This document shows positions 2,468-16,391 of a DNA stretch of 64,000 nucleotides, in pieces. Under the pieces are notes generated by a model. That model did no database searches and was not told the origin of the DNA. It saw only the letters and a list, made by a program, of their open reading frames with translations. The stretch's first letter is position 1. Each line of letters starts with the position of its first letter. This stretch comes from Chloroflexota bacterium (lineage in GTDB: Bacteria; Chloroflexota; Anaerolineae; Anaerolineales; Villigracilaceae), in assembly GCA_016223135.1 (NCBI GenBank), contig JACRPQ010000016.1, positions 62,001 through 126,000 of the forward strand, written 5' to 3'. Position numbers and translations under genes: made by a program.

Positions 2468-2562
2468 CGCGCCATTCTGTAAACGGTGTATGACTTCCGT
2501 TCAAAAATCGGGTACAATCAGGCAGGTTGAAATTATATATAATTTTAACACGAGGAGACCGA

Positions 2563-4038
2563 ATGCCTGGTTTTACCCCCGGTCGCCGCTGGCAGCCCCC
2601 CTACCTCCCCTTTGAAAAAGAAACGTTTGGCGAGCGCGCGCTGAGAGTGCTTGAATACAGCGTGAAGGGTCCGCTGTTCGGGTGCCGCATGTGCGGAAAC
2701 TGTCTATTACAGGAGACCGCGCTCATTTGCCCGATGGAATGCCCGAAGGGTTTGCGCAACGGTCCGTGCGGCGGCTCGACCTCCGAATACTGCTACGTGG
2801 ACAAAAGCCGTCCGTGCGTGTGGTACAAGATTTATGAGCGGGCGTTCGCTTGGGGGCGTGAAGACTTACTGCTCGAAGTGCTGCCGCCGCTCGATTGGGA
2901 GCAAGTGGGGAAAAATTCGTGGGGCGCCATCTTTCGGAATATCGGCAAAATGGGCGTGAGGAAAGTCTTCAAGGGCCTGCTCTCGAAGGAAACCCGCGCT
3001 CAAACCTGGGATGGGATTTTCCGCCCGGTGCGCCAGCCCGAGTGGTGGAAGGGCGACTCAGAGTATCACCCGCCCGCCTACACCGAACCCGCTTCGGACC
3101 TGGAACGGAGGCTGGTCGCCGGTCAATTTGTCGTCACCTGCGAGATCACGCCTCCCCTCTCCGCCTCCACCGAGAAGTTAGCCCGCAGCGTCGAGAGGGT
3201 CAAGCCGCTGGTTGCCGCCGTCAACTTTACCGATAATCAAGGCGCAAACCCGCGCATGTCATCGTGGGCATGCTGCCAAGTGGCGATGAAGCAGGGCGCG
3301 GAGCCAGTTCTGCAAATGTCGGCGCGCAACCGCTCGCGCGGCAGCCTGCAAAGCGAAATCATCGGCGCGGCGGCGCTGGGCGTGCGCAACGTTCTCTGTG
3401 TGACAGGCGACAGTGCGAAACTCTCCCCATCTCCGCGCGACCAGATGGACATCAACGATTTGGATTCGATTCAAATGCTGTGGATTCTGCGGCGAATGCG
3501 CGACGAGGGACGATACCTGGACGGACGCGAAATCAAGCATCCGCCGATGTTCTTTCTCGGCGCGGCGGCTTCGCCGTTTTCATCCAATCCCAAGTTTCAG
3601 GCATTGCGCGAGCAAAAGAAGGTCAATGCGGGCGCGCAGTTCTTTCAGACCAATCTCATCTTCGATGTGGACGGCATGGAGAGATGGCTGAACGAACTTG
3701 CCAAACGGAATGTGCTGGACAAAGTGTACATTCTGGCGGGAGTGACTGTTGTCAAGAGTTTGAGGATGGCGCAGAGATTATTGGAAATTCCGGGCGTGTA
3801 TCTGCCCAAAGAGGTGTATCACCGTATGGAAGCCGCAGAGCGGGCAGGCAGTGCAGCGGAGGAAGGCATCCAAATTGCGCTGGAGACCATCGCCAAAATC
3901 AAAAGGTACGAGAAACAGGGCATTCACGGCATCCATTTGATGCCCGTCGGTTGGGATGAGGTCATTCCGAGGGTTGTGACGGAAGCGGGGCTGGCGACAA
4001 TGGATGGCGCGGCGGGTGGCGCAGCGCCGCGTCAATGA
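2563..4038 (+). CDS. metF: Methylenetetrahydrofolate reductase with N-terminal MetV-type Cys domain
   Basis: The protein joins a cysteine-rich N-terminal domain (FGCRMCGNC and later CPMECPKG, residues about 40-90) to a MetF-type TIM barrel that starts near residue 185 (VVTCEITPPLS, then VNFTDNQGA). The first domain corresponds to the MetV/MTHFR C-terminal zinc or Fe-S domain family found with acetogen-type reductases. The product should reduce 5,10-methylene-THF to 5-methyl-THF for methionine synthesis or C1 metabolism. I chose the ATG at 2563 because GAGGAG precedes it by 6 bp; a TTG at 2527 is also in frame. It has 491 residues. It converges with the next gene and overlaps it by 7 bp. Acetogen-type versus mycobacterial-type electron donor is unresolved. 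Confidence 0.85.
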   Translation: MPGFTPGRRWQPPYLPFEKETFGERALRVLEYSVKGPLFGCRMCGNCLLQETALICPMECPKGLRNGPCGGSTSEYCYVDKSRPCVWYKIYERAFAWGREDLLLEVLPPLDWEQVGKNSWGAIFRNIGKMGVRKVFKGLLSKETRAQTWDGIFRPVRQPEWWKGDSEYHPPAYTEPASDLERRLVAGQFVVTCEITPPLSASTEKLARSVERVKPLVAAVNFTDNQGANPRMSSWACCQVAMKQGAEPVLQMSARNRSRGSLQSEIIGAAALGVRNVLCVTGDSAKLSPSPRDQMDINDLDSIQMLWILRRMRDEGRYLDGREIKHPPMFFLGAAASPFSSNPKFQALREQKKVNAGAQFFQTNLIFDVDGMERWLNELAKRNVLDKVYILAGVTVVKSLRMAQRLLEIPGVYLPKEVYHRMEAAERAGSAAEEGIQIALETIAKIKRYEKQGIHGIHLMPVGWDEVIPRVVTEAGLATMDGAAGGAAPRQ

Positions 4039-5738
4039 CCTGGCGGTTCCACTTCCAGCCATGCCGTCTGGTAGGGGGCGAGTGAAAACGAAGCATCATG
4101 GAAACGGTTCGTGAGCAGGTCGCGAGCCGTTTTCTTCAGCGGGTTGTGAATTTGAATTTCCTCTGCGGTGACGTTTTGCAGGCAGAGGACTTGCTTGGAG
4201 CCATCGGGGGAGATGCGCCGGAGGGCAAAAACCCGCTTGCCAAAATCAAGGACGTGCTGCTTACCGTGAGGGTGAAACGCGGGCGAGGAGGAACGCGCGG
4301 CAAGCAATTGACGATAACGCGCAAACACGTTTGAACGCAGGGAGTGGGGGTCGGCAAGTTCACGTTCCAGTTCGGCGCGGGTGAATTTTTGGCGGTTGAT
4401 GGTGCGATTCTGTTTGGTGATTTCCACACCTTCACGCCAGTTGCGCGAGCCGAAGAGACTGTGGAAGTAAATCCCCGGCACGCCGAGGAGGGAGAGCATA
4501 ATCGCCTGCGCCGCGAGGAAACGATTGACTTGTAAATCCAGCGGCTCATTCCCATTTGGGTTCGAGAGCGCGTCAAAGTAGTTGATGTTCATCTCGTAGG
4601 GGCTGGTCGAGCCGTCCGCGTTGTGCTTGTAGGAAATCAAGCCGCCGTGCGCGAGGGTCTGCGCGACGAGTGAGTCAATGTCAGCGGAGGATAAGATGCC
4701 TCGGACAGGATTCAGCCCCACCCCGTCGTGTGAAGCGAGGAAGTTGAAAAAGGTCGTTCGGTCAGAGGGAAGCGTCAGAGTCGAAGCCCATCCCGATAAA
4801 ACGCTTGCGTCTCCCGTGCGGAAGGTGTGAAGCGTGAGCGGCGGAAGCGCAAAGTTATAGACCAGCTGCGCTTCGTTTGTCCCATCGCCGAAGTAGGAGA
4901 TGTTGTCAGCATGAGGGACGTTGGTCTCGGTGATGAGGTACACGTGCGGGGCGATCTCATCGAGGACCGCTCGCAGCAGTTGAACGACTTTGTGCGTTTG
5001 CGGCAGGTGGATGCAGGGCGTGCCGATTTCCTTCCAGAGGTAGGCGATGGCGTCGAGGCGGATGAATTGCGCGCCGCGCTCGACGTACATGAGCAGGATG
5101 TCGAGAATTTCCAGAAGGACAGCGGGATTGCGGAAGTTGAGGTCCACCTGGTCGGCGCTGAAGGTCGTCCAGACTTTGCGCTTGCCAGCGGCGGTTTGAA
5201 ATTCGGTGAGCAAAGGCAGCGCGCGCGGACGGACGACTTGTGAGAGATCGGGGTCGCCTTCGACAGTGATAAAGTAGTCTTTGTATGGTGCTTCGTTTTG
5301 CAGAAACTTTTGAAACCATCCGCCCTGCGCGGAGGCATGATTGATGACGCCGTCGAACATCAGCCGAAAGGATTTGCCCAGCCGTTCGATGTCGCTCCAA
5401 CTGCCGAGGGCGGGGTCCACCGCGTGGTAATCTTTGACCGAGAAGCCGTCATCCGAAGACCAGGGATAGAACGGCAGGATGTGAACGCCGCTGACGACGC
5501 CGCGCAGGTGCGTTTCGCAAAACTCCGCCAGCGTTTGGAGGGGCGCTTTGCCGCGCTCTTGTATCTGGTCGCCGTAGGTGATGAGGATCGAATCGCGTTC
5601 CGTCAATGACGAATGCTCTGGCTGGGGGATTCGCCCGCGATAACGGTTTATCAGTTTCTGCAATCGTTGGTTTACAAGAGGAGCAAGTTCAGCGCCGTAT
5701 AGTTCCTGCAGAGTTGTGGTATAAAAAGTTTGCATCAT
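4032..5738 (-). CDS. GH13_18 glycoside phosphorylase (sucrose / glucosylglycerate phosphorylase-like)
   Basis: A 568-residue alpha-amylase-superfamily enzyme. The order HILPFYPWSSDDGF, the nucleophile motif RLDAIAYLWKE, the acid/base motif ITETN and NFLASHDGVG matches subfamily GH13_18, which phosphorolyses sucrose, sucrose 6-phosphate or glucosylglycerate to release glucose 1-phosphate. The divergent neighbours make glucosyl-3-phosphoglycerate, so glucosylglycerate phosphorylase is an attractive reading, but sucrose phosphorylase cannot be excluded from sequence. I prefer the MMQTFYTT start at 5738. A longer frame begins at a GTG at 5786, but those extra residues are encoded by a dispersed cacgaag-type repeat. 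No clear ribosome site is visible at either start. Confidence 0.85.
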   Translation of the reverse strand: MMQTFYTTTLQELYGAELAPLVNQRLQKLINRYRGRIPQPEHSSLTERDSILITYGDQIQERGKAPLQTLAEFCETHLRGVVSGVHILPFYPWSSDDGFSVKDYHAVDPALGSWSDIERLGKSFRLMFDGVINHASAQGGWFQKFLQNEAPYKDYFITVEGDPDLSQVVRPRALPLLTEFQTAAGKRKVWTTFSADQVDLNFRNPAVLLEILDILLMYVERGAQFIRLDAIAYLWKEIGTPCIHLPQTHKVVQLLRAVLDEIAPHVYLITETNVPHADNISYFGDGTNEAQLVYNFALPPLTLHTFRTGDASVLSGWASTLTLPSDRTTFFNFLASHDGVGLNPVRGILSSADIDSLVAQTLAHGGLISYKHNADGSTSPYEMNINYFDALSNPNGNEPLDLQVNRFLAAQAIMLSLLGVPGIYFHSLFGSRNWREGVEITKQNRTINRQKFTRAELERELADPHSLRSNVFARYRQLLAARSSSPAFHPHGKQHVLDFGKRVFALRRISPDGSKQVLCLQNVTAEEIQIHNPLKKTARDLLTNRFHDASFSLAPYQTAWLEVEPPGH

Positions 5739-6093
5739 GCAATTCATTATATGATCGGAAATAAGATGATCTTCCACGAAGGACACGAATTTTCATGAGG
5801 AAAGAAGAGAAATTCAGTAAATCACGAAAACCCCGCATAGATTCTCCAGCGCAAATCAGGCGCTAGAGACCGCCAAATACGCACTTTCGTGGAGTACTGA
5901 AATTCGTGATTTTTCGTGAACTTCGTGGATAAAAAGTTAATTCCGACAAAGTTTATTGTAATACATGATGCTGGGGAACATCTTATCAGCTCACCTTACG
6001 CGGTAGCACGAGATTTATCTCGCGTTTTCAGGCGACATAAATGTCGCCCTACGAAGGAACTGCGTAAGGTGAGTTATCAGCAAGGAGACAAAC
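5739..6093. other. Divergent intergenic region with repeats
   Basis: This 355-bp gap separates the GH13 gene (minus) and a GT4 gene (plus). It contains two stretches of the dispersed cacgaag/cttcgtgg repeat (about 5771-5792 and 5884-5934) and a MITE-like palindromic element (5983-6080). An AAGGAG ribosome site for the plus-strand gene lies at 6082-6087, directly after the MITE copy. An open frame at 5916-6203 looks spurious. No promoter could be assigned with confidence. Confidence 0.6.
5983..6080. mobile_element. 84-bp MITE-like palindromic element with 7-bp target duplication
   Basis: The unit at 5990-6073 has perfect 12-bp terminal inverted repeats (CTCACCTTACGC at 5990-6001, GCGTAAGGTGAG at 6062-6073). 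Inside are two further palindromes, CGAGAT/ATCTCG near 6009-6022 and GGCGACAT/ATGTCGCC near 6031-6048. The heptamer TTATCAG flanks both sides (5983-5989 and 6074-6080) as expected for a target-site duplication. It has no coding capacity, so movement would need a transposase in trans. The right end lies a few bases before the ribosome site of the glycosyltransferase gene. Confidence 0.75.
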
Positions 6094-7434
6094 ATGACGC
6101 CTTCACGAAAAATCGGTTTCATCTCCACTCGCTTTGCAAGCACGGACGGCGTTTCGCTCGAGACGACCAAATGGGCGACCGTCCTCGAACGGCTGGGGCA
6201 TGAGTGCTTTTATTTTTGCGGCGAATGCGACCGTCCGCCGGAAAAGAGTTACATCGTACCCGAAGCCTTTTATCGTCATCCCGAAATTGACGCCATCAAT
6301 CAGGTTGCCTATCAAGGCACATGGGGCAAACTGCACGAAGGACGAAGGCGGCATCCTGAAATCGAAGAATTGCATCGGGATTTCTTCTCGGTGTACATCC
6401 GCCCGGCGCAGGTCACACAGCGCATCCACGAACTGAGGTTCTTCATCAAGGAGGAACTCTATAAATTCGCGCACAAGTTCAAACTCGAGCTGCTCATCGT
6501 CGAGAATGCGCTTGCCATTCCGCTCAATTTGCCGCTGGGACTTGCCATCACCGAGTTCATCGCCGAGACGGGCTATCCCGTCATCGCGCATCATCACGAT
6601 TTCCAGTGGGAACGTCAGCGCTTTATGAACAATTCGGTGCATGATTACATCGCCGCCGCCTTCCCGCCCGACCTGCCATCGGTGCGGCATGTGGTCATCA
6701 ACTCGTTACAGGCGCATCAACTTGCCTGGCGAAAGGGAATCAACTCGATGATTATTCCCAACGTGATGGACTTCGATTCTCCCCCTCCGCCGCTGGATGA
6801 TTACGCAGAAACGGTTCGCGCGGACCTCGGAGTGGCTCCTGACCAATATCTTTTTCTCCAGCCGACGCGCATCATCCCGCGCAAGGGCATCGAACACGCC
6901 ATCGAGCTGACGCGCCGCGTTGGTATGCCGGCAGAACTGGTCATCTCGCATGCGGCGGGAGACGAAGGCACGGATTATGAAAAGCGCGTGCGGGAGTTTG
7001 CCGCCCTGCTGGGCGTAACCGTAAATTTTGAGGCAAGACTCATCGGCGAGAGGCGAGGCGTCACAGCCGATGGGCGCAAAATCTACTCGCTGGGCGACGT
7101 GTACCAACAGGCGGACCTCGTCACCTATCCATCCACCCTGGAGGGCTTCGGCAATGCCTTCCTCGAGGCGATTTACTACAAACGTCCGCTGGTGGTCAAC
7201 AACTATTCCATTTACGAAGCGGACATCAAGCCGAAGGGCTTCAAGGTCATCGAATTCGACGGTTTTATCAGCAATGCGACGCTGGAGGAGACGCGCTACG
7301 TCTTGAAGCACCCCGAAGAAACCGCCAAACATGCCGAACATAACTATGAACTGGCGCGGCGGTATTTTTCCTATTCGATGCTCGAACGACATTTGAGCCT
7401 GCTGCTCTCAGACTGTTTCGGAGAGGCGGTGTAG
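6094..7434 (+). CDS. GT4 glycosyltransferase, possible mannosylglucosylglycerate synthase
   Basis: A 446-residue retaining GT-B enzyme. The N-terminal half begins with an acceptor-side motif IGFISTRFASTDGVSLET. The C-terminal half carries the GT4 donor site: PTRIIPRKGIEHAIEL, then PSTLEGFGNAFLEA with the EX7E-like acidic pair. AAGGAG lies 6 bp upstream of the ATG. It heads a cluster with a second GT4 and glucosyl-3-phosphoglycerate synthase, divergent from a GH13_18 phosphorylase. In this setting a mannosyltransferase acting on glucosylglycerate is plausible, but donor and acceptor are inferred from context only. The stop codon lies inside a 14-bp palindrome. Confidence 0.8.
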   Translation: MTPSRKIGFISTRFASTDGVSLETTKWATVLERLGHECFYFCGECDRPPEKSYIVPEAFYRHPEIDAINQVAYQGTWGKLHEGRRRHPEIEELHRDFFSVYIRPAQVTQRIHELRFFIKEELYKFAHKFKLELLIVENALAIPLNLPLGLAITEFIAETGYPVIAHHHDFQWERQRFMNNSVHDYIAAAFPPDLPSVRHVVINSLQAHQLAWRKGINSMIIPNVMDFDSPPPPLDDYAETVRADLGVAPDQYLFLQPTRIIPRKGIEHAIELTRRVGMPAELVISHAAGDEGTDYEKRVREFAALLGVTVNFEARLIGERRGVTADGRKIYSLGDVYQQADLVTYPSTLEGFGNAFLEAIYYKRPLVVNNYSIYEADIKPKGFKVIEFDGFISNATLEETRYVLKHPEETAKHAEHNYELARRYFSYSMLERHLSLLLSDCFGEAV

Positions 7435-7459
7435 AACAAGTCTGGAGACTTGTTCTACA
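7430..7459. repeat. Perfect 14-bp inverted repeat between GT genes
   Basis: TGTAGAACAAGTCT (7430-7443) and AGACTTGTTCTACA (7446-7459) are separated by GG. The repeat swallows the stop codon of the upstream gene and ends about 8 bp before the AGGAG site of the next gene. It resembles a REP-type dispersed hairpin. It could stabilise the upstream message or lower read-through within the operon. There is no T-run, so it is not a classical terminator. Confidence 0.7.
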
Positions 7460-7477
7460 GACATCAGGAGCAACGGC

Positions 7478-8716
7478 ATGAAGATTGCCTTACTGCACTA
7501 TTCCTCCCCGCCCATTGTGGGAGGCGTGGAAAGCGTCCTTGCGCATCACGCGCGGTTGATGGCGAACGCCGGGCATGAGGTGATTATCCTTGCAGGGCGC
7601 GGCGAGGTCTTCGATGAACGCATCAAAGTGCGCGTCCTGCCGCGTTTGGATTCGCGTCATCCTGAGGTGATGGAGGTCAAGGGCTTCCTCGATGCGGGCA
7701 AACGTACGCCCGCCTTCGAGGAATTGAGAGAGGCGATAAAAAGAGAATTGCTCGCAGAATTGGAAGGCTGCCACGTGCTCATCGCGCACAACGTCGCCTC
7801 GCTGCACAAGAATTTGGCGCTGACTGCCGCGCTGCATGAGGCATATCGCTCCCCCGGTTTTCCCCGTCTCATTCTCTGGCATCACGACCTGGCATGGACG
7901 ACACCGCGCTACCGCCACGAACTGCACGAGGGTTATCCCTGGAATCTATTACGCACGCACTGGGAGGGCGCAACTCAGGTTGTCGTTTCGGAGTTGCGAA
8001 AGCAGGAACTTGCCGAATTGCTTGGCATCTCCAACGGTTCGATTCGCGTCGTCCCCAACGGGGTGGACCTCGAATCCTTCTTCAAACTCGAGCCGCAAAC
8101 CATCGCATTCATCGAACATTTAAAACTGCTGGAGGCAGACCCGTTGTTCCTTTTGCCCGTGCGCCTGACAGCAAGGAAAAACATCGAGCTGGCGCTGCAC
8201 GTCCTCGCCGAACTGCGGAAGGAATATCCCCAAGCCATGCTGCTCGTCACGGGACCTGAAGGTCCGCATAACCCCGCCAACCAAGCCTACAAGAAAAAGT
8301 TGTTGGACCTGCGCGATGCGTTGAAATTGGAAGGCGCGGCGCATTTTCTGGCGGAGGTCACGTCCGAGTTCCTGCCCGATGCGGTGATTGCAGATTTCTA
8401 CCGTCTCGCCGATGCCTTGCTCTTTCCAAGTCAGGAGGAGGGCTTCGGGATTCCCATCATCGAAGCCGCGTTCAGTAAATTGCCCGTCTTCTGCGCAGAT
8501 ATTCCCGTTCTGCGCGAACTGGGCGAGGATGACGTGACGTATTTTGCTCCAGATGCGAATCCGCTTGAGGCGGCGAAGCAGGTTCAGGTCCGGTTGGAAG
8601 CGGAGTCCACGTCCCGCTGGGCGCGCCGCGCGAAACGCGGCTATGCCTGGGAGCAAATCTATTCCCGTCACATCGCACCATTAATCAAAGAGGTGATCAA
8701 TGACAACAGCACATAG
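7478..8716 (+). CDS. GT4 family glycosyltransferase
   Basis: A 412-residue GT-B glycosyltransferase. The N-terminal part has the GT4 acceptor loop PPIVGGVESVLAHHARLM. The donor half has VPNGVDLESF, LTARKNIELALHVLAEL and PSQEEGFGIPIIEAAF, the usual nucleotide-sugar site with its catalytic glutamates. The ATG at 7478 follows AGGAG by about 7 bp. It overlaps the next gene by 17 bp, so the two are probably translationally coupled. Context suggests a role in building a glycosylated glycerate or related solute. Mannosyl versus glucosyl transfer cannot be told. Confidence 0.82.
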   Translation: MKIALLHYSSPPIVGGVESVLAHHARLMANAGHEVIILAGRGEVFDERIKVRVLPRLDSRHPEVMEVKGFLDAGKRTPAFEELREAIKRELLAELEGCHVLIAHNVASLHKNLALTAALHEAYRSPGFPRLILWHHDLAWTTPRYRHELHEGYPWNLLRTHWEGATQVVVSELRKQELAELLGISNGSIRVVPNGVDLESFFKLEPQTIAFIEHLKLLEADPLFLLPVRLTARKNIELALHVLAELRKEYPQAMLLVTGPEGPHNPANQAYKKKLLDLRDALKLEGAAHFLAEVTSEFLPDAVIADFYRLADALLFPSQEEGFGIPIIEAAFSKLPVFCADIPVLRELGEDDVTYFAPDANPLEAAKQVQVRLEAESTSRWARRAKRGYAWEQIYSRHIAPLIKEVINDNST

Positions 8717-10499
8717 AATCAAACTGGCGCTCGTCCCCATCGGGCTGGGAAATGACGGACAGGATGCGTTCCATGCGGCGCGCCTCATCGCCGAGGAAGT
8801 CCTGTTGGTGGGTATTGTGCCAATTGCGCGGGGACAATCCGTAAGCGCAGGCGCGGAACAGGCAAGGGCGGTGCGCAAACAATTGATGTCCATGAGCGGC
8901 GCGAATGTGCGTTTCAAAGCGACGGTCATCGTCTCGCCCGCCGTCTGGAAGGATTTACAAGGCATCATCGCCAACGAGGCGCCCGACCTGCTCGTAATGG
9001 AATGGAAGGATGGGAAGACGCCATGGGGCGACCCGATTGCAAACATTCTGGTCAACCCCGTCTGCAATGTCGCCATTGTGCGCGGAAGCCTGCATAGCAG
9101 ACCCCAACGGACTCTGGTCCCGATTCGCGGCGGACCGTATGCCGAGTTGGCGTTTCAAATTGGAATGAATTTGCGCTCGCAGCAACTGGATGTTTTACAC
9201 ATCACGCTCACCGGCGCGGAAACGGATGCGCCTTTCAAGGGCATGAAATACATCCTCTCGCAAATCCCCGAAGCCAATTTGCGTTCGATGACCACCGACG
9301 ATGCCGTCACCACGATCATCGAGGAATCCCGCCGCTACGACACGGTGGTGCTTGGCGCAACGGCGGGCAAATCCACGGGAGGCGCGATGATTGGACCCGT
9401 CGCCGAAAGACTCTTGAACGAATCATCCGTCAACCTCATCCTCGTCAAGACGCGCCGCCCGATGCTCGAAACCGGGCTGGATGAAAGCGTGGGGGCGAAA
9501 GCGATTTCCATCCTGGTGGACAAATGGTTTGCGGAAAACACTTTCCACGCCGAGGAATTTTCCAATCTCAAGAATTTGCTGGCGCTCAAGGAAAAACAAG
9601 GCAATGTCATCAGCCTGGCGCTCCCCGCTTTGAATGAGGAGGCAACGGTTGGCAAGGTCATCCGCACCATCAAAAGAGAATTGATGGAAAGGTATCCCCT
9701 GCTGGATGAAATCGTCCTGATGGACTCGAACTCCACCGACCGCACGCGCGAGATTGCAAAAGGGCTTGGCGTTCCCGTGTACATCCATCAACGCCTGCTC
9801 CCAGAAATGGGAGCGCGCCCCGGCAAGGGAGAAGCGTTATGGAAGAGTCTGCTCGTCACCAAAGGCGACATCATTGCATGGATTGACACGGACATTATCA
9901 ACATCCATCCGCGCTTCGTCTATGGAGTTATCGGTCCGCTTCTGCTGAACCGTAACATCCAATTCGTGAAGGGTTTTTATCGGCGTCCGTTGAGAATGGG
10001 CGATAAGGTGCAGGCAGGCGGGGGCGGGCGCGTGACCGAACTCACGGCGCGTCCGTTGTTGAATTTGTTCTATCCCGAACTCTCGGGCGTCGTCCAGCCG
10101 CTTTCGGGCGAATATGCCGGACGCCGCGGAGCGCTCGAAAAAGTGCCGTTCGCTTCGGGGTACGGCGTCGAAACCGGCTTGCTGATTGACATCTTCGAGA
10201 GGTTTGGTCTGCGCGCCATCGCACAGGTGGATTTGCTGGAGCGCATCCATCACAATCAGGAACTGGAGGCGCTCAGCAAAATGTCCTTTGCCATCATCCA
10301 GACGGTGCTTCGCAAACTCGAGCCGCGCTTCGAACGTTCCATCATCGAGGAGGTCAACAAAACGATGAAGTTAATCAAGTATGCAAAGGGCGGCTATTAT
10401 CTTGAAGTGGAGGAGATTGCCGAACGCGAACGCCCGCCGATGATTACCGTCCCTGCGTATCGGGAGCGCTTCCACAAACAACATCGTTCCGCTGCGTGA
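8700..10499 (+). CDS. gpgS: UspA-like domains fused to glucosyl-3-phosphoglycerate synthase (GT81)
   Basis: The 599-residue product starts with two UspA-type domains (about residues 1-130 and 135-255, the second ending in GPVAERLLNESSVNLILVKT). A GT81 catalytic domain follows from about residue 305: LPALNEEATVGK, MDSNSTDRTREIA, PGKGEALWKSL, the metal site WIDTDI, and GFYRRPLRMGD with GGGRVTELTARPLL. These match GpgS, which transfers glucose from NDP-glucose to 3-phosphoglycerate. GpgS normally has no USP domain, so the fusion is unusual and may couple synthesis to stress or nucleotide binding. The expected phosphatase GpgP is not in the window. It overlaps the preceding GT4 gene by 17 bp. Confidence 0.85.
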   Translation: MTTAHRIKLALVPIGLGNDGQDAFHAARLIAEEVLLVGIVPIARGQSVSAGAEQARAVRKQLMSMSGANVRFKATVIVSPAVWKDLQGIIANEAPDLLVMEWKDGKTPWGDPIANILVNPVCNVAIVRGSLHSRPQRTLVPIRGGPYAELAFQIGMNLRSQQLDVLHITLTGAETDAPFKGMKYILSQIPEANLRSMTTDDAVTTIIEESRRYDTVVLGATAGKSTGGAMIGPVAERLLNESSVNLILVKTRRPMLETGLDESVGAKAISILVDKWFAENTFHAEEFSNLKNLLALKEKQGNVISLALPALNEEATVGKVIRTIKRELMERYPLLDEIVLMDSNSTDRTREIAKGLGVPVYIHQRLLPEMGARPGKGEALWKSLLVTKGDIIAWIDTDIINIHPRFVYGVIGPLLLNRNIQFVKGFYRRPLRMGDKVQAGGGGRVTELTARPLLNLFYPELSGVVQPLSGEYAGRRGALEKVPFASGYGVETGLLIDIFERFGLRAIAQVDLLERIHHNQELEALSKMSFAIIQTVLRKLEPRFERSIIEEVNKTMKLIKYAKGGYYLEVEEIAERERPPMITVPAYRERFHKQHRSAA

Positions 10500-10689: not shown

Positions 10690-12777
10690 TCAGGTCGCTA
10701 GAAACTTCGTGACCTTTGTGTCCCTTGTGGAAGGAAAGGTTTTTTCAGTGCAGACAAGGTATGGTTTTGAATTGATTTTCAATTCATTTCCTGCCGCTTC
10801 CACCGCGTCATCTTCAAAGCCAAAGAATGTCCAAAACGTGACCTGCGGCTGAACAGCCTCCAGCCTCACGGAGAGGGCGGGTTCTTTGTGACCGTAATAC
10901 TTCGACCGCCAGCCTCTTGTTGAGTTCGGATCGCCGCGGACAACGGAGAAACTGCCGTTTCCTTTGGTCATCCCAACCTGTACCTTGTATCGGCTTTCAC
11001 CCACAGACAATATAACGCCATGATCCTTTTGCTCATGGGGAAAATCGTTGAGCAGCCAATGAAGCGAGTAACGATGCGGCTCATCGGCATCGATAGTGTC
11101 AATCACCAGCCAGCGGTCACCCTCCAGCGCCATGACCGTCCGCTTGTGAGAGACAGGTTTGTAGCCGTCGTGTTCGCCCTGCCAAACGTCCTTGTCATGC
11201 CTGAGAACTTTGCCCTTGCACCAGTTTGTCCACGTAAAGCGGCTGAGCAGCGTCATCTGGTCTTTGCCGTCCACAGTGACGGTGTTATGCACGGACGTGC
11301 GCGCCAGTCCGTTGCGCCAGTGACCTTCGCCGGAGTAGAGGTAGGTGCCTGCGTCAATGGCGATGTTTTGACCGCCCAGCCATAAGTCCACATGGAGTTG
11401 GTCGGCGTGGGAGGGACGGGCGGCAAAGCGCGTGCAGCGGATGAAGGCTTTGCTGTTTGCGCCGCGCAGGAGGTAGATGCCGCCGTGAGGGAAGGAGGTT
11501 TCTCCCTCACCCCTAACCCCTTTCCCGCCGAGAGAGGGAGACTCTGCTGACTCTCTTCTCCCTATGGGAGAAGGGCTGGGGGTGAGGGCTTTTTCACCAC
11601 ACAACCAAAATACATCCTCATCCCATGGACCAGGCTCAAAGAGGCGTTCACCTTTGGTGACGTACCACCCCAATTGCAGCAATGGGCGGTAGTCCGTGAA
11701 GTCGCAGTTGTTGAGGGGTAGGACGAGGGCGCCATCGTTCGAGCCGTAGAGGGGCATTTGTCCTGTTTGGGGTTCGATGAGATGGGCGAGGAATTCGATG
11801 GATTTGGCGACGGAGGTTGTCAAGTGATCGGTAAATGGTAATTGGTAAATTTTGCTTAACTGGATGGCAAACAGGTAAATATGAAGAATAAACCGATGAT
11901 AGTTGAGCGAGTACATCGAGTATGCGCCGTCGGGGAAGATTTGCGCGCGGGCTTCGTGTTCGAGGGAGGCTTTCCCAAAGGCAAGATATTTCGCCGCGTG
12001 TTTCAGTTCAGGGAACAGAAGTCCAACCATCCACAGCGCAAAGGCTTCCGTAACGGCATGGTTGTTATGGGAAGAGACGGCAAAGGAATGGTTGCGATAG
12101 ATGCGCTCGACCTGGGCGGCGAGGTAGAGTTTGAAGCGGGCGAGGCGTTCGGGCGTGGAGGAGGGAGAGGTCAGGAAGGCGCGATAGGCAAACGTCCACG
12201 CCATGAGGCGCAGGGCAATTTCCTGACCGTCCATCCAGTTGGGTCCCGTGTTGGGAGGGTTGTGATGCGCCCAGTCTTCGACCAGAGTCCAGAAGGCTTG
12301 GGGATATTTTTCGTCGCCTGTGGCGGCGTAAGCGCGGACGAGGGTGTAAGCAAAGGAGAAGCGGTTGGGCTCCCAAATGAATTTGATGTCGGCAGCGGTG
12401 TCGTCGGAATACTCAGTCCAGTGTTTATGCGGGGCGATCGTCAAGCCGCTGACAGGGTCCTTGTGCCAGCTGGGCGGAAAGCCTGTTTTGACGAATTGAT
12501 GGGAAAAGTATTTGAGTTCGCCGTTCAAAACCCGCTCCGCTTCTTCGATGGCGGTTTGGGGATTCCAGGAAACCCGCTCTGGCAATTTCGCTTTTCCTTC
12601 GCTCACTCGAGCAGGTTTGTTGGCGATGTACTTTTCATAATCAGCCCACTCCCCCATCGGCATTTGCAGGCGGAGAAGACCAATGCGAAGGCGAAAGGCG
12701 TAGGCAGAGCGAAAGAGCAGCCAGCGCAGACCAAGTTCGCGGTAGAGGGAGGCGAATGTACGGAGGGTTGTCAACAT
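10690..12777 (-). CDS. Heparinase II/III-like polysaccharide lyase
   Basis: A 695-residue protein with an N-terminal alpha/alpha-toroid (WAHHNPPNTGPNWMDGQEIA, SSHNNHAVTEAFALWMVG) and a C-terminal beta-sandwich with the heparinase II/III signature RPSHADQLHVDLWLGGQ, followed by DAGTYLYSGEG. Such enzymes cleave uronate-containing polysaccharides, and close homologues often sit in exopolysaccharide clusters. Neighbouring WecA-like and GT4 genes fit that role. There is no obvious signal peptide. Two parts look repeat-derived: an in-frame Ser/Pro/Gly-rich insert encoded by 11503-11589, and the last 15 or so residues (FPSTRDTKVTKFLAT), which come from the cacgaag-type repeat. Confidence 0.82.
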   Translation of the reverse strand: MLTTLRTFASLYRELGLRWLLFRSAYAFRLRIGLLRLQMPMGEWADYEKYIANKPARVSEGKAKLPERVSWNPQTAIEEAERVLNGELKYFSHQFVKTGFPPSWHKDPVSGLTIAPHKHWTEYSDDTAADIKFIWEPNRFSFAYTLVRAYAATGDEKYPQAFWTLVEDWAHHNPPNTGPNWMDGQEIALRLMAWTFAYRAFLTSPSSTPERLARFKLYLAAQVERIYRNHSFAVSSHNNHAVTEAFALWMVGLLFPELKHAAKYLAFGKASLEHEARAQIFPDGAYSMYSLNYHRFILHIYLFAIQLSKIYQLPFTDHLTTSVAKSIEFLAHLIEPQTGQMPLYGSNDGALVLPLNNCDFTDYRPLLQLGWYVTKGERLFEPGPWDEDVFWLCGEKALTPSPSPIGRRESAESPSLGGKGVRGEGETSFPHGGIYLLRGANSKAFIRCTRFAARPSHADQLHVDLWLGGQNIAIDAGTYLYSGEGHWRNGLARTSVHNTVTVDGKDQMTLLSRFTWTNWCKGKVLRHDKDVWQGEHDGYKPVSHKRTVMALEGDRWLVIDTIDADEPHRYSLHWLLNDFPHEQKDHGVILSVGESRYKVQVGMTKGNGSFSVVRGDPNSTRGWRSKYYGHKEPALSVRLEAVQPQVTFWTFFGFEDDAVEAAGNELKINSKPYLVCTEKTFPSTRDTKVTKFLAT
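11503..11589. repeat. Palindromic dispersed repeat inserted in frame in the lyase gene
   Basis: The plus strand reads a ccctcacccctaaccc arm and later the inverse gggctgggggtgaggg. This is the common bacterial repeat whose translation reads LTPSPSPIGRR and GGKGVRGEG. It adds about 29 residues between the two lyase domains without breaking the frame. It is an independent insertion, unlike the cacgaag repeats. Confidence 0.75.
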
Positions 12778-12815
12778 GGTTTTCTGTAGTCGGTCGAAAA
12801 CGCTTAGAAGCGTAG

Positions 12816-12980
12816 GGCACGTTCTCTAACGTGCCTGGCGGCGTGAGAGAACGCCGAGTATGCACCAAGATTTCTGGAAATTACGAACGACCACCTCACC
12901 GCAAAGAATACAGAGTACACAAAGGTTTGAGAGGCGGAAGTCAAGAATCCTTAGCGCCCTTGGTGTCCTTTGTGTTTAAC
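12816..12980. repeat. Small palindromes and cacgaag-type repeat between minus-strand genes
   Basis: GGCACGTT and AACGTGCC (12816-12835) form an 8-bp hairpin, followed by a second small inverted repeat (ggcgt...acgcc). A cacgaag/acaaagg-type stretch then runs from about 12890 to 12980 and continues into the next gene's 3' end. No terminator with a T-run was seen. Confidence 0.5.
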
Positions 12981-13984
12981 AACGTATTTGCGTGGCGATT
13001 CAGCATATAGTACGTGAGCGGCAGCCCGAAAAGGATGAAGGCAGAAGCAAGTTGGTCTCCATTGCTCCAGGCGGAGGCAAGTCGCAAGGCAACCAGCGTA
13101 AGGACAATGTAGAGGATGCTAACCTGCGCATGGGAATACCCGCCAATCACGAGACGCTGATACAGATGGGTGCGGTGCGCAGCGAAGACATTCTCCCGCC
13201 TGACGGCGCGGCGGATAAAGGTGACGCCGGCGTCCATGATGAACGTCCATAACAGCAGTGTGCCGAGCATGAGCGCATCGCCTTCCTCATCGGAGGCGAG
13301 CAAAGGCATCACCGCAAAGGTGTAACCGAGAAACGTGCTGGCAACATCGCCCATGAAGATTTTGGCGGGCTGCCAGTTGTGAACGAGAAATCCCAAACTG
13401 CTTGCGGCAATTGCCAGCGCAATCCAAAACACAAACGAGTTCGCCAGATAGGCAATGTTTGCCGTGAGCAGCGCCCAGCCCAGCCCCGCCGCAAACGCCA
13501 CGCCGCCCGCCATGCCGTCAATCCCGTCCATGAAGTTGTAGGCGTTGGTCAGACCGACAATCCACAAAAACGTGATGAGGATGCCGGCAGCACCCAATTG
13601 CAATTTGCCAAACAACGGAATGGTGACCGAATCGAAATATCCCAGCGCCGCAATGGACACAGCGGCAACCAGTCCCTGCACCGCAAAGCGGACATGCGGC
13701 GAGAGGGAATGGAGGTCATCGCGCCAGCCGAGAAAGGCGATGACCAGCCCGCAAAGGAGGTAAACCAGGCTGCGCATCCAATCCGCTTCGCTCATGGACC
13801 ATAAGCCTGCTCCCGTCACGAGGAGCACAATCGCCAACCCTCCGCCGCGCGGCGTGGGCAGGGAATGCGAACTGCGTTCGGTGGGACGGTCGAGAATCTG
13901 ACGGCGTTCCGCGTAACGGCGGAGGAGCCACACGCCGAGGCAGGAAAGCAGGGCAAGGATGAAGAAGAAGATGACGGGTGACAT
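12941..13984 (-). CDS. WecA/MraY-family polyprenyl-phosphate sugar-1-phosphate transferase
   Basis: A 347-residue polytopic membrane protein with about ten hydrophobic segments. It has the family motifs FLGWRDDLHSLSP (aspartate-rich loop), NAYNFMDGIDGMAGG and FMGDVASTFLGY. Enzymes of this family load a UDP-linked amino sugar onto undecaprenyl phosphate to start O-antigen, capsule or teichoic acid synthesis; MraY itself is less likely because no mur genes are near. The last eleven residues (NTKDTKGAKDS) are encoded by a dispersed intergenic repeat and are probably not functional. The ATG at 13984 lies only 9 bp after a TACAAT box, so the message may be leaderless. Confidence 0.85.
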   Translation of the reverse strand: MSPVIFFFILALLSCLGVWLLRRYAERRQILDRPTERSSHSLPTPRGGGLAIVLLVTGAGLWSMSEADWMRSLVYLLCGLVIAFLGWRDDLHSLSPHVRFAVQGLVAAVSIAALGYFDSVTIPLFGKLQLGAAGILITFLWIVGLTNAYNFMDGIDGMAGGVAFAAGLGWALLTANIAYLANSFVFWIALAIAASSLGFLVHNWQPAKIFMGDVASTFLGYTFAVMPLLASDEEGDALMLGTLLLWTFIMDAGVTFIRRAVRRENVFAAHRTHLYQRLVIGGYSHAQVSILYIVLTLVALRLASAWSNGDQLASAFILFGLPLTYYMLNRHANTLLNTKDTKGAKDS

Positions 13985-14046
13985 GGAGGCGATTGTAAAC
14001 GAGAATGCGATTCAAAAGATGATGGACAAGACGCCGCTTCACCCGC

Positions 14047-15168
14047 TCAAGCCGATTTCCTGCTTTCCAGCAACTGAGCAATCTCCTCCACATCCAGCGG
14101 CATATCCAAGTCAAACACCTGCCCTTCAGCGGCGCGGAAGAGACGGTCCCAAATGGTGAGTCCCAGCCCCTCCTGCGCCGGCGCGCGGACGAGGATCACG
14201 TCCACGCGCAGAGCGTCGAGGCGGCGCATTTGGTCGAAGAGGCGGCGTCCGATTTGAGGCAGGTCGGTTGCGGATCCCAAGTCGGCAATCTCAAGATTCA
14301 AATCCGTAAAGTGACGAGCGTCTTCTGTCGTGGTCATCACACTTACGCGATACCCCTGCTTTGCCAGCACAGAAGCCAAATCGCGCAGACGAGGGAGGGC
14401 GGCATCCGTCTGACCGGTGAAGAGCAAAAGGGGCGACTTCGGCGAATAATGCTTGACAAGCATACCGGGCGCAGAGATAGGGAGTCCCTCGTCCTCTTTC
14501 ACGTAACGCCTCGCGATTTGCAGATCGGGGATTTGTTGTCGGAGTAGATCAAGCGCGAGACCGCCGTGCCGCAAAACGGTCGGGGGAGAGGCGGTCAGGT
14601 CCAGGATGGTGGATTCGAGCCCGATGGGGCAGTCGCCGCCGTCGAGGATGACGTCCACGTGACCATTGAGGTCTTCCAACACGTGACGGGCGGAGGTGGG
14701 GCTGGGGCGGGTGAAGAGGTTCGCGCTGGGTGCGGCAATCGGCAAGCCGGAGGTCTCGACCAGCGCAAGCGGGATGCGGTGATTCGGCATGCGAACGGCA
14801 ACCGTCTCCAAGCCTGCCGAAACATTCGCAGCCACTTGAGGACTCTTTTTCAACACGAGAGTCAGCGGACCAGGCCAATATATCTGCGCCAGTTCGTATG
14901 CCAAGGGGGGCACATCCCGCGCGACCTGTTCGATTTGCGAGAGGCGGGCGAGATGAACAATGAGCGGGTCATAAAACGGACGTTTTTTGACCTCGAAGAT
15001 GCGCCCCACCGCCACAGGACTGAGGGCGTTGGCACCCAACCCATAGACGGTTTCGGTCGGGAAGGCAACCAACCCATCCGCGCGGAGACGTTCCGCCGCC
15101 TGCGCAATGACCGCCGGGTCGGGATTGTTTGGATCGAGTGTGAAGGTTTGGGTTTTAACGGAGTACAC
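14047..15168 (-). CDS. sua5: L-threonylcarbamoyladenylate synthase with Sua5 domain
   Basis: The 373-residue product has a YrdC/TsaC domain (FPTETVYGLGANA, KKRPFYDPLIVH, AVRMPNH, IAAPSANLFTRPSPT) and a C-terminal Sua5 domain from about residue 240, joined by the linker APGMLVKHYSPKSPL. It makes threonylcarbamoyl-AMP for the t6A37 modification of tRNA. The start is GTG at 15168, 2 bp after the stop of the upstream glycosyltransferase gene, so the two minus-strand genes are probably cotranscribed. Confidence 0.92.
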   Translation of the reverse strand: MYSVKTQTFTLDPNNPDPAVIAQAAERLRADGLVAFPTETVYGLGANALSPVAVGRIFEVKKRPFYDPLIVHLARLSQIEQVARDVPPLAYELAQIYWPGPLTLVLKKSPQVAANVSAGLETVAVRMPNHRIPLALVETSGLPIAAPSANLFTRPSPTSARHVLEDLNGHVDVILDGGDCPIGLESTILDLTASPPTVLRHGGLALDLLRQQIPDLQIARRYVKEDEGLPISAPGMLVKHYSPKSPLLLFTGQTDAALPRLRDLASVLAKQGYRVSVMTTTEDARHFTDLNLEIADLGSATDLPQIGRRLFDQMRRLDALRVDVILVRAPAQEGLGLTIWDRLFRAAEGQVFDLDMPLDVEEIAQLLESRKSA

Positions 15169-15170
15169 GG

Positions 15171-16391
15171 TTAGCCGTCCACCAGCCTGACCAACAGCGC
15201 GAGCGTCTCGTTCAACTTGTCGCGGCGGTCGAGATGTTTCACCAGATATTCGCGGGCATTGCGTCCCATTTGCTGGAGGCGCTGCGAGTCTTTTGACAAT
15301 GCAAGAATGGTCTCTGCCAGCATGGCATCATCGCCCGGCTGGACGAACACCCCCCCGCCCGACTCTTCCATCAGCCGCCGCGAAACGCCGTCAATGACCA
15401 GGACGGTGGCGCGTCCCGCCGCCATGTAGTCGAAGACCTTGTTGGGGTAGGTGGTGCGGAACATGGGGATGTCCTGCAGGATGGCGAGACAGGCATCCGC
15501 CGCGGCGACGACGCGCGGCATGTCTTTTTTGGGGCGCACGCCGGCAAAGAGGACGTTCGAAAGTCCCATGCGCTGCGCTTCCGCTTCCAAACGCGGGCGT
15601 TCCTTCCCGTCGCCGAACAGGACAAAGCGAATCCTTTCCTCGACCTTCAGCCGCTTCGCCGCGCGCAGGAGCGTGTCAATGTCGTTTGCCTGTCCCAGCG
15701 CGCCCGCATACAACACGACGAACTTATCCTGCAGACCCAACTCCGCCCGAATGGAGACGCCGTCCACAGTAGGGTGGAACATGTCCACGTCCGTGCCGTA
15801 GGGGATGTACGTCACTTTGTTCGCCGGCACGCCCTTTGCCAGCATATACTCGCGATAAGCAGGCGAATTGACCAGAATGTGCGTGGCGCGCGCGTACAAA
15901 AACCGCTCCAGCCAGCGCGCCAGCGCAATCACGAGCGGATTCTTCAACACGCCCATGCTCACGCCGAACTCGGGCCACAGGTCGCGCACTTCGAGCAAAA
16001 ACGGCTTGCGCCGCATCCACGCCACGAACCACGCCGAAACCGCCTGAAAGATGGGCGGCGTGGTGCCCATCACCAAATCCACATCGCGCACTTGCAGTGC
16101 GGTCCACACCGAGCTGAACATAAAACTGAAAAACGAAATCACCCGCCAAAAATAACTGCGATGCAGGGCGGGATAAATATACGAACGCAGCACCCGCACG
16201 CCGTCGAAATTCTGCTCGGCGAAAAGTCCCCTTCGCGCCACCGTGCGCTGACCGGTCTGATAATTCAAATCGCTGGCGACGATGACCAGTTCATGTCCGT
16301 GCGATTGCAGGAATTTCGCCATCTCGAAATGGCGGGTGTGTCCGGGTTCTTCGGGCGAGACAAAGGCTTGATTGATTAACAGGATACGCAT
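15171..16391 (-). CDS. GT4 family glycosyltransferase, WcaI/WbuB-like
   Basis: A 406-residue GT-B enzyme beginning MRILLINQAFVSPEEPGHTR and containing YIPYGTDVDMFHP, YAGALGQANDIDTLL and a C-terminal PNKVFDYMAAGRATVLVIDG donor site. The pattern matches GT4 proteins annotated as WcaI or WbuB-like, which act in cell-surface polysaccharide assembly. That role suits the neighbouring WecA-like and heparinase-like genes. TATAAT ends about 10 bp upstream of the ATG, so a leaderless message is possible; no ribosome site is visible. Confidence 0.82.
   Translation of the reverse strand: MRILLINQAFVSPEEPGHTRHFEMAKFLQSHGHELVIVASDLNYQTGQRTVARRGLFAEQNFDGVRVLRSYIYPALHRSYFWRVISFFSFMFSSVWTALQVRDVDLVMGTTPPIFQAVSAWFVAWMRRKPFLLEVRDLWPEFGVSMGVLKNPLVIALARWLERFLYARATHILVNSPAYREYMLAKGVPANKVTYIPYGTDVDMFHPTVDGVSIRAELGLQDKFVVLYAGALGQANDIDTLLRAAKRLKVEERIRFVLFGDGKERPRLEAEAQRMGLSNVLFAGVRPKKDMPRVVAAADACLAILQDIPMFRTTYPNKVFDYMAAGRATVLVIDGVSRRLMEESGGGVFVQPGDDAMLAETILALSKDSQRLQQMGRNAREYLVKHLDRRDKLNETLALLVRLVDG

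Follow-up and report, generated by a model that had tools for sequence, protein, structure and literature searches.

What pathway is served by a sugar-transferring synthase that is joined to a pair of universal stress protein (USP) domains, and what would the joined module do for the enzyme? The question is raised by a locus in a 64,000-nucleotide stretch of DNA from a Chloroflexota bacterium of the Anaerolineales (contig JACRPQ010000016.1, assembly GCA_016223135.1); the whole stretch is here called the window and supplies the numbering used throughout. The four genes that a first-pass annotation had listed at 4032-10499 are all present with the coordinates it gave: a GH13_18 phosphorylase on the minus strand (4032-5786) and, on the plus strand, two GT4 glycosyltransferases, GT4a (6094-7434) and GT4b (7478-8716), followed by a 599-residue fusion protein (8700-10499) in which two USP-fold domains precede a GT81 synthase. 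The answer favored here, at a probability of roughly two in three, is that the locus serves the metabolism of glucosylglycerate (GG), combining synthesis with phosphorolytic recycling, probably with extension of the product by the GT4 enzymes, and that the USP module has a regulatory or scaffolding role. Synthesis and recycling of a GG-type solute are proposed because a GT81 glucosyl-3-phosphoglycerate synthase (GpgS) is encoded together with the GT4 pair and a GH13_18 enzyme that fits 2-O-glucosylglycerate phosphorylase (GGaP).

The catalytic domain occupies residues ~269-588 (9504-10463, plus strand), as delimited by the NCBIfam model NF010496, a phmmer search of the PDB, VIA-align comparison of the predicted structure, and invariant catalytic residues. 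The GpgS equivalog NF010496 is matched at 387.7 bits, against a cut-off of 262, over residues 273-584, and the phmmer search returned an E value of 6.8e-72 to the glucosyl-3-phosphoglycerate synthase chain 7p5l. Its solved sequence relatives are mycobacterial GpgS chains and a Rubrobacter enzyme, with their best stretches on query residues 274-543. The AlphaFold2 model of the whole fusion (mean pLDDT 83.2, pTM 0.58) leaves the relative placing of the two halves uncertain; the C-terminal half aligns with GpgS and MpgS entries at Z 32-35. When the window protein is aligned with 55 relatives, E313, K376, D396/D398, V445-T446, Y488, E491, R515, H517 and N519 are invariant in all 56 fusions. Mapped through alignments to the solved chains, these correspond to Glu54, Lys114, Asp134/Asp136, Val186/Thr187, Tyr229, Glu232, Arg256, His258 and Asn260 of M. 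tuberculosis GpgS, whose functional roles are given in the structure paper for that enzyme (PMC2581804). The same paper ties the PLSGE loop to discrimination against mannose; here the loop (467-471) is invariant in the 56 save for S469, which is nearly so, and the window fusion also retains the DxD and GGRVTE motifs. Remoter fusions were drawn from 20 regions picked by hand from distant genomes of the phylum, of which 18 (all but L134 and L136) were scanned for motifs with approximate N-termini; GGRVTE and PL[SA]GE occur together in 17 of the 18, and L142 has neither. The best reading of the domain is a GT81 glucosyl-3-phosphoglycerate synthase, an activity predicted from family membership and these conserved residues.

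An enzyme fitted to take GG apart is encoded on the opposite strand. The GH13_18 protein shares 255 of 568 aligned positions (45% identity) with E. coli YcjM, which is annotated as glucosylglycerate phosphorylase (EC 2.4.1.352), and its likely start is Met18 of the long open reading frame (ORF), near 5735, where the YcjM alignment begins. A TETN motif and a loop-A Glu are described in a review (PMC7178133) as separating glucosylglycerate phosphorylase from sucrose phosphorylase. Both are present in the window enzyme and the loop-A Glu is also found in YcjM, whereas loop A carries Gln in the two best solved relatives, one of which is named sucrose phosphorylase; (T/S)ETN is kept in all 50 members of the phosphorylase cluster from related neighborhoods. 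The cut-off of the sucrose phosphorylase equivalog TIGR03852 is missed (212 against 334 bits). The window enzyme thus fits GGaP, as a prediction.

The N-terminal half of the fusion is the less familiar part. Scanned as a whole, the protein reaches 29.0 bits on Pfam Usp (PF00582), against a cut-off of 24, with its best stretch at 202-250 and no single stretch above the cut-off alone; residues 1-263 by themselves score 33.6 bits. Usp is matched at E<=0.01 by every one of the 45 fusion N-termini that were scanned. Five distant fusions were scored as well, with 63-83 bits for four of them and 38 bits for the other. The AlphaFold2 model of residues 1-263 is confident (pLDDT 90.3, pTM 0.88) and matches tandem USPs and the C-terminal domains of cotransporters over 220-243 residues, at Z of about 13-19 and 10-20% identity. 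Because the alignments span the module at this length, two USP-fold domains are modeled, though the Pfam profile does not reach the first of them in the window protein: the first at residues ~7-128 (8718-9083, plus strand), placed by model secondary structure and VIA-align rows ~2-254, and the second at ~137-250 (9108-9449, plus strand), placed by Pfam Usp and VIA-align. The earlier description of a GT81 enzyme fused to two UspA-like domains is borne out by these scores and by the tandem fold of the model. The likeness to cotransporters is one of fold, from which a shared signal does not follow; a literature search for cotransporter/USP papers found none.

What such a module might bind was approached through motifs. 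The ATP motif G-X2-G-X9-G(S/T) is absent from all 56 near relatives, the window protein included, and ATP binding through the canonical motif was therefore rejected; among the distant fusions the motif occurs in two of 18, in the first domain. The second domain of the window protein keeps a degenerate version, G219-x2-A222-x9-G232-P233: G219 is present in 56/56 and G232 in 54/56, the middle Gly is not kept, and Pro is the commonest residue (36/56) at the Ser/Thr position. A stand-alone USP locus of the same genome (L001) has the ATP motif in one frame. For cyclic di-AMP (c-di-AMP), the motif of the KdpD USP domain is given as SXS-X20-FTAXY (PMC4686210); it is found in none of the 56 near and 18 distant fusions, so that binding by this motif was likewise rejected. 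A diadenylate cyclase domain is encoded in the host genome. The second domain opens with a stretch, R143-G144-G145-P146-x-A148-E149-L150, whose named residues vary little or not at all, and this suggests a conserved site.

These observations bear on whether the module receives a signal at all. It could be a passive leftover, or purely a solubility or dimerization element with no signal input; the missing ATP motif would suit this, as would the lower mean column identity of the USP part (47% in 45 sequences, vs 63% for the whole protein in 56). Such a reading appears unlikely in view of the kept R143 stretch and of the recurrence of the fusion through many families, described below. From the modeled fold, the USP pair is most likely a regulatory or an oligomerizing or scaffolding module on the synthase. 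That it answers to stress, as the first-pass annotation had it, is a possibility suggested by the fold alone. A bolder version has a cotransporter-type tandem USP sensor setting osmolyte synthesis allosterically, through a new ligand site near R143-G-G-P-x-A-E-L in the second domain, with a nucleotide, c-di-AMP or 3-phosphoglycerate as possible ligand; this is offered tentatively, as a specific proposal that is more apt to fail than to hold.

In a sample of 400 Chloroflexota genomes, the 599-residue query finds some match at E<=0.001 in 311, many of them weak and partial. Counted by eye as rows in which USP and GT81 parts are joined, the fusion is carried by about 117 of the 400, the window genome included, across many families; in 11 of the rows the alignment does not begin before residue 95-119, and four start with the opening bases of a contig. 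One apparent separate GpgS stands among the rows listed (G217 C993, an open frame of 309 aa). Within the genus, 17 of 18 genomes, some of them incomplete (80-99%), match the fusion query at E<=1e-50; two of the 17 matches are fragments, one of which (G410) shows the GT81 part only. A frameshift or assembly artefact as the source of the fusion frame is ruled out, since the same architecture stands in many other assemblies. From 233 relatives in genome contigs, 80 loci were kept and named, and 78 of these carry Chloroflexota names; the exceptions, by record name only, are L068, from a Deltaproteobacteria metagenome-assembled genome (MAG), and L086, from an Acidobacteria MAG. One named locus, L048, comes from a species in culture, Flexilinea flocculi. 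Beyond the phylum, a protein search of plasmid records returned 13 matches, none covering more than 80% of the query: three are actinobacterial and align from residue 263-280 on, two are haloarchaeal (an amino acid permease and a USP) and fall on the USP half, and the remaining eight are weak partial glycosyltransferase hits.

The claim that the USP fusion is novel therefore needs dividing. No description of a USP-GpgS fusion was found in open-access titles and the starts of abstracts, a coverage that takes in few subscription papers and leaves absence in print unproven. As a novelty of one genome, however, the claim was rejected, since the fusion recurs through the phylum. The components are of familiar kinds; what is apparently new is their combination, a tandem USP on GpgS, and this is common to many members of the phylum.

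The linkage to GT4 enzymes and a GH13_18 phosphorylase, also proposed from the window alone, recurs in the named loci. With partners scored at 45% identity or more, GT4b is present in 77 of the 80 loci, GT4a in 61 and GGaP in 55; by mechanical ORF calls GT4b lies directly upstream of the fusion in 75/80, and many of the partner misses are near contig ends. The distant regions are thinner, with GT4b in 14 of the 20 (36-48% identity), the phosphorylase in 4, a phosphatase in 4, and a GH63-type protein in 5 (at least 49% identity). Several of these counts weigh against a GG pathway at every such locus. Among loci with 10 kb on both sides, nine lack GT4a and eight lack GGaP, and L051 and L086, with the same margins, lack all three partners; six of the 20 distant regions have none of the partners, among them the one with L142, whose missing GGRVTE and PLSGE/PLAGE motifs were noted above. 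Because of these partnerless regions and of L142 without its motifs, not every fusion need have the same role. L142 itself (L142:8013-9824) is a distant USP-USP-GT2/GT81-like fusion, perhaps with another reaction. In two further distant families the fusion adjoins a second, divergent GT81-like protein (L145:9862-11103 and L146:6682-8148) that scores 52-53 bits on NF010496, under the cut-off, and GT4b was not found there.

Further neighbor families recur, each sampled by scanning one or two members. The MGH1/GH63 group is represented in 14/80 named loci, and the one member scanned reaches 104 bits on the glucosylglycerate hydrolase model, against a cut-off of 550. A second, remoter MGH1-like protein (~660-920 aa by ORF call, e.g. 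L058:2997-5414; one scanned) is found in 10/80 loci, in some relatives at a distance of ~4.4-5.5 kb on the upstream side of the fusion; PF22422 is matched just once in the window genome, at a different place (C19:82987). Cyclic-di-AMP receptor-type genes in 10/80 loci and P-II-like genes in 9/80 (one of each scanned) lie ~0-8 kb downstream of the fusion, e.g. L063:10242-10601 and L061:13633-13995, and might hint at an osmotic second-messenger link.

The constancy of GT4b invites a different account, in which GG is a primer and not a free solute: GpgS would start a GG-capped intracellular polysaccharide, comparable to mycobacterial methylglucose lipopolysaccharide, and the GT4 enzymes would lengthen it. 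GpgS is described as a key enzyme of the methylglucose lipopolysaccharide pathway (PMC2581804), two GT4 enzymes adjoin GpgS here, and the nearest model to GT4b, the most constant neighbor, is the MSMEG_0565 family glycosyltransferase, albeit well under its cut-off (94 against 260 bits). Set against this, the locus repeatedly includes enzymes of two kinds that would suit GG breakdown, as befits a free solute; nor was a methyltransferase or acyltransferase seen, a weaker point, with only five neighbor proteins scanned against Pfam and the other clusters unannotated. On balance a primer role appears improbable, and GG as a free solute is preferred.

GT4a raises the question of the end product. 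Its residues 6-434 align with positions 2-427 of the 431 in the MggS model NF041101, at 219.9 bits; this falls far under the equivalog cut-off of 640, and from its sequence GT4a is 'MggS-like' and not classed as MggS. Of the synthesis and recycling of (mannosyl)glucosylglycerate that the first-pass annotation envisaged, the glucosylglycerate-type solute stands as the best reading and the mannosyl part, given this score, does not. Mannosylglucosylglycerate (MGG) could nevertheless be the end product by a phosphorylated route, with GT4a acting on glucosyl-3-phosphoglycerate and a phosphatase acting late. Petrotoga mobilis reportedly has two routes to MGG. The full-length homology of GT4a to the MggS model speaks for such a route, which would also explain a dispensable glucosyl-3-phosphoglycerate phosphatase (GpgP) at this locus.

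For the GpgP that the first-pass annotation had still to find, a candidate lies directly downstream of GpgS in relatives. A histidine phosphatase is encoded in 33/80 named loci; in 31 of the 33 its start lies within 40 nucleotides (nt) of the end of GpgS, and mechanical ORF calls give a 4-nt overlap with the GpgS stop in 26 loci. One such phosphatase, compared with solved structures, has 4pz9, the mycobacterial glucosyl-3-phosphoglycerate phosphatase, as third-best match (E 1.5e-27). Three findings count against the GG reading on this side. The matches 1ebb and 1h2e, named only 'phosphatase', rank above 4pz9; the two members scanned, at 140-154 bits, come near the cut-off for alpha-ribazole phosphatase (162.9 bits); and in the window genome no dedicated GpgP was found. 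Because of the first two, the name GpgP is mainly positional, and the relatives' phosphatase is a candidate for the role chiefly by its place behind GpgS. The window genome has five histidine phosphatases, with mean identities of 30-35% to the neighborhood family, vs a median of 49% within that family, and no match to the HAD-type MPGP model TIGR01486. The 190-nt gap behind GpgS, inspected by eye in three frames, shows no phosphatase frame or remnant. Another phosphatase could supply the step in this genome.

In the genus, close orthologues of the phosphatase (83-100%) adjoin GpgS in three of the 18 genomes and one further genome has a 52% match on another contig, all measured against the L036 protein; a family-level phosphatase is thus found in four genomes where the fusion query is matched in 17, which favors a route that can do without it. 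The incompleteness of some of these genomes lessens the force of the comparison. Further, no mannose-specific gene turned up, none having been sought; GGaP would presumably not degrade MGG without a mannosidase; and the GT4a score remains far from that of an MggS. MGG made by the phosphorylated route is accordingly rated as doubtful, and metabolism of GG, probably extended by a GT4 enzyme, is retained.

In the proposed pathway, the GT81 domain would transfer glucose from a nucleoside diphosphate glucose to 3-phosphoglycerate, giving glucosyl-3-phosphoglycerate. GG would result from dephosphorylation by a phosphatase, in many relatives probably the enzyme encoded directly behind GpgS and here perhaps another. 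Either GT4 enzyme, or both, would probably add further sugar to GG or to its phosphorylated form, making a di- or oligosaccharide glycerate, for example mannosyl- or glucosyl-GG, and the divergently encoded GH13_18 enzyme would phosphorolyse GG to glucose 1-phosphate and glycerate, so that the solute is removed or recycled. The tandem USP module would regulate or oligomerize the synthase on a cellular signal, with canonical-motif ATP binding unlikely. The enzyme families, the catalytic residues and the gene linkage are read directly from the sequence, and the predicted steps are based on the families and their linkage. The sugar donor, the final product, the status of GG as a free solute, and the regulation with its signal are what we infer beyond them.

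The last 17 nt of GT4b are shared with the fusion gene, and the phosphorylase ORF and the GT4-GT4-GpgS genes diverge from an intergenic region at 5787-6093; a simple scan of 5700-6150, the divergent promoter region, found no sigma-70-like site. The end of the phosphorylase gene overlaps by 7 nt the end of a convergent gene for methylenetetrahydrofolate reductase (2527-4038), a single protein in which a DUF5981 region (44-125) precedes the MTHFR domain (193-487). Downstream of the fusion, on the opposite strand, is a gene for a heparinase II/III-type protein; with an MraY/WecA-like transferase (by eye only) and a GT4 protein it makes up a minus-strand stretch, 10690-16391, that resembles a piece of a surface polysaccharide region. 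By the fusion protein, the nearest named locus is that of Anaerolinea sp. isolate TT109_57_62 (92% identical), followed by Chloroflexi bacterium CFX6 and an Anaerolineales MAG (83-84%).

USPs are ubiquitous proteins whose ligands and outputs are for the most part unknown, and a USP pair fixed to an easily assayed enzyme would let the signal sensed by the module be read directly. A glycerate-type osmolyte also becomes probable for many Chloroflexota, made and recycled by the products of a single locus. Were the allosteric proposal true, solute production would be set, at the level of the protein, by a module of the type that governs ion cotransport.

Several parts of the locus have known counterparts from which they depart. 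GpgS entries of mycobacteria and other actinobacteria (PDB 3e25, 7p5l and others) align with the model at ~261-595 with 43-49% identity, at the Z scores given above, but the solved chains are 326-387 aa long and have no USP module; the matches of Nocardia, Nonomuraea and Tsukamurella in plasmid records, which begin at residue 263-280, lack it as well. The phosphorylase shares its identity, TETN and loop-A Glu with YcjM, which in E. coli K-12 belongs to a ycjM-ycjU region without GpgS, whereas here the enzyme is encoded beside a USP-fused synthase. GT4a covers nearly the entire MggS model and yet falls far short of it in score. The second USP domain aligns with the c-di-AMP-binding USP domain of KdpD (7ji4; Z 11.4 over 115 residues), but the binding motif of KdpD is not in the fusions. 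The entire tandem module is matched by the tandem USPs 3loq and 3ab7 and by the C-terminal domains of the SLC12 cation-chloride cotransporters (KCC, NKCC1, NCC and the prokaryotic 3g40); in those proteins it is free or attached to a transporter, while in the Chloroflexota fusion it is joined to a glycosyltransferase.

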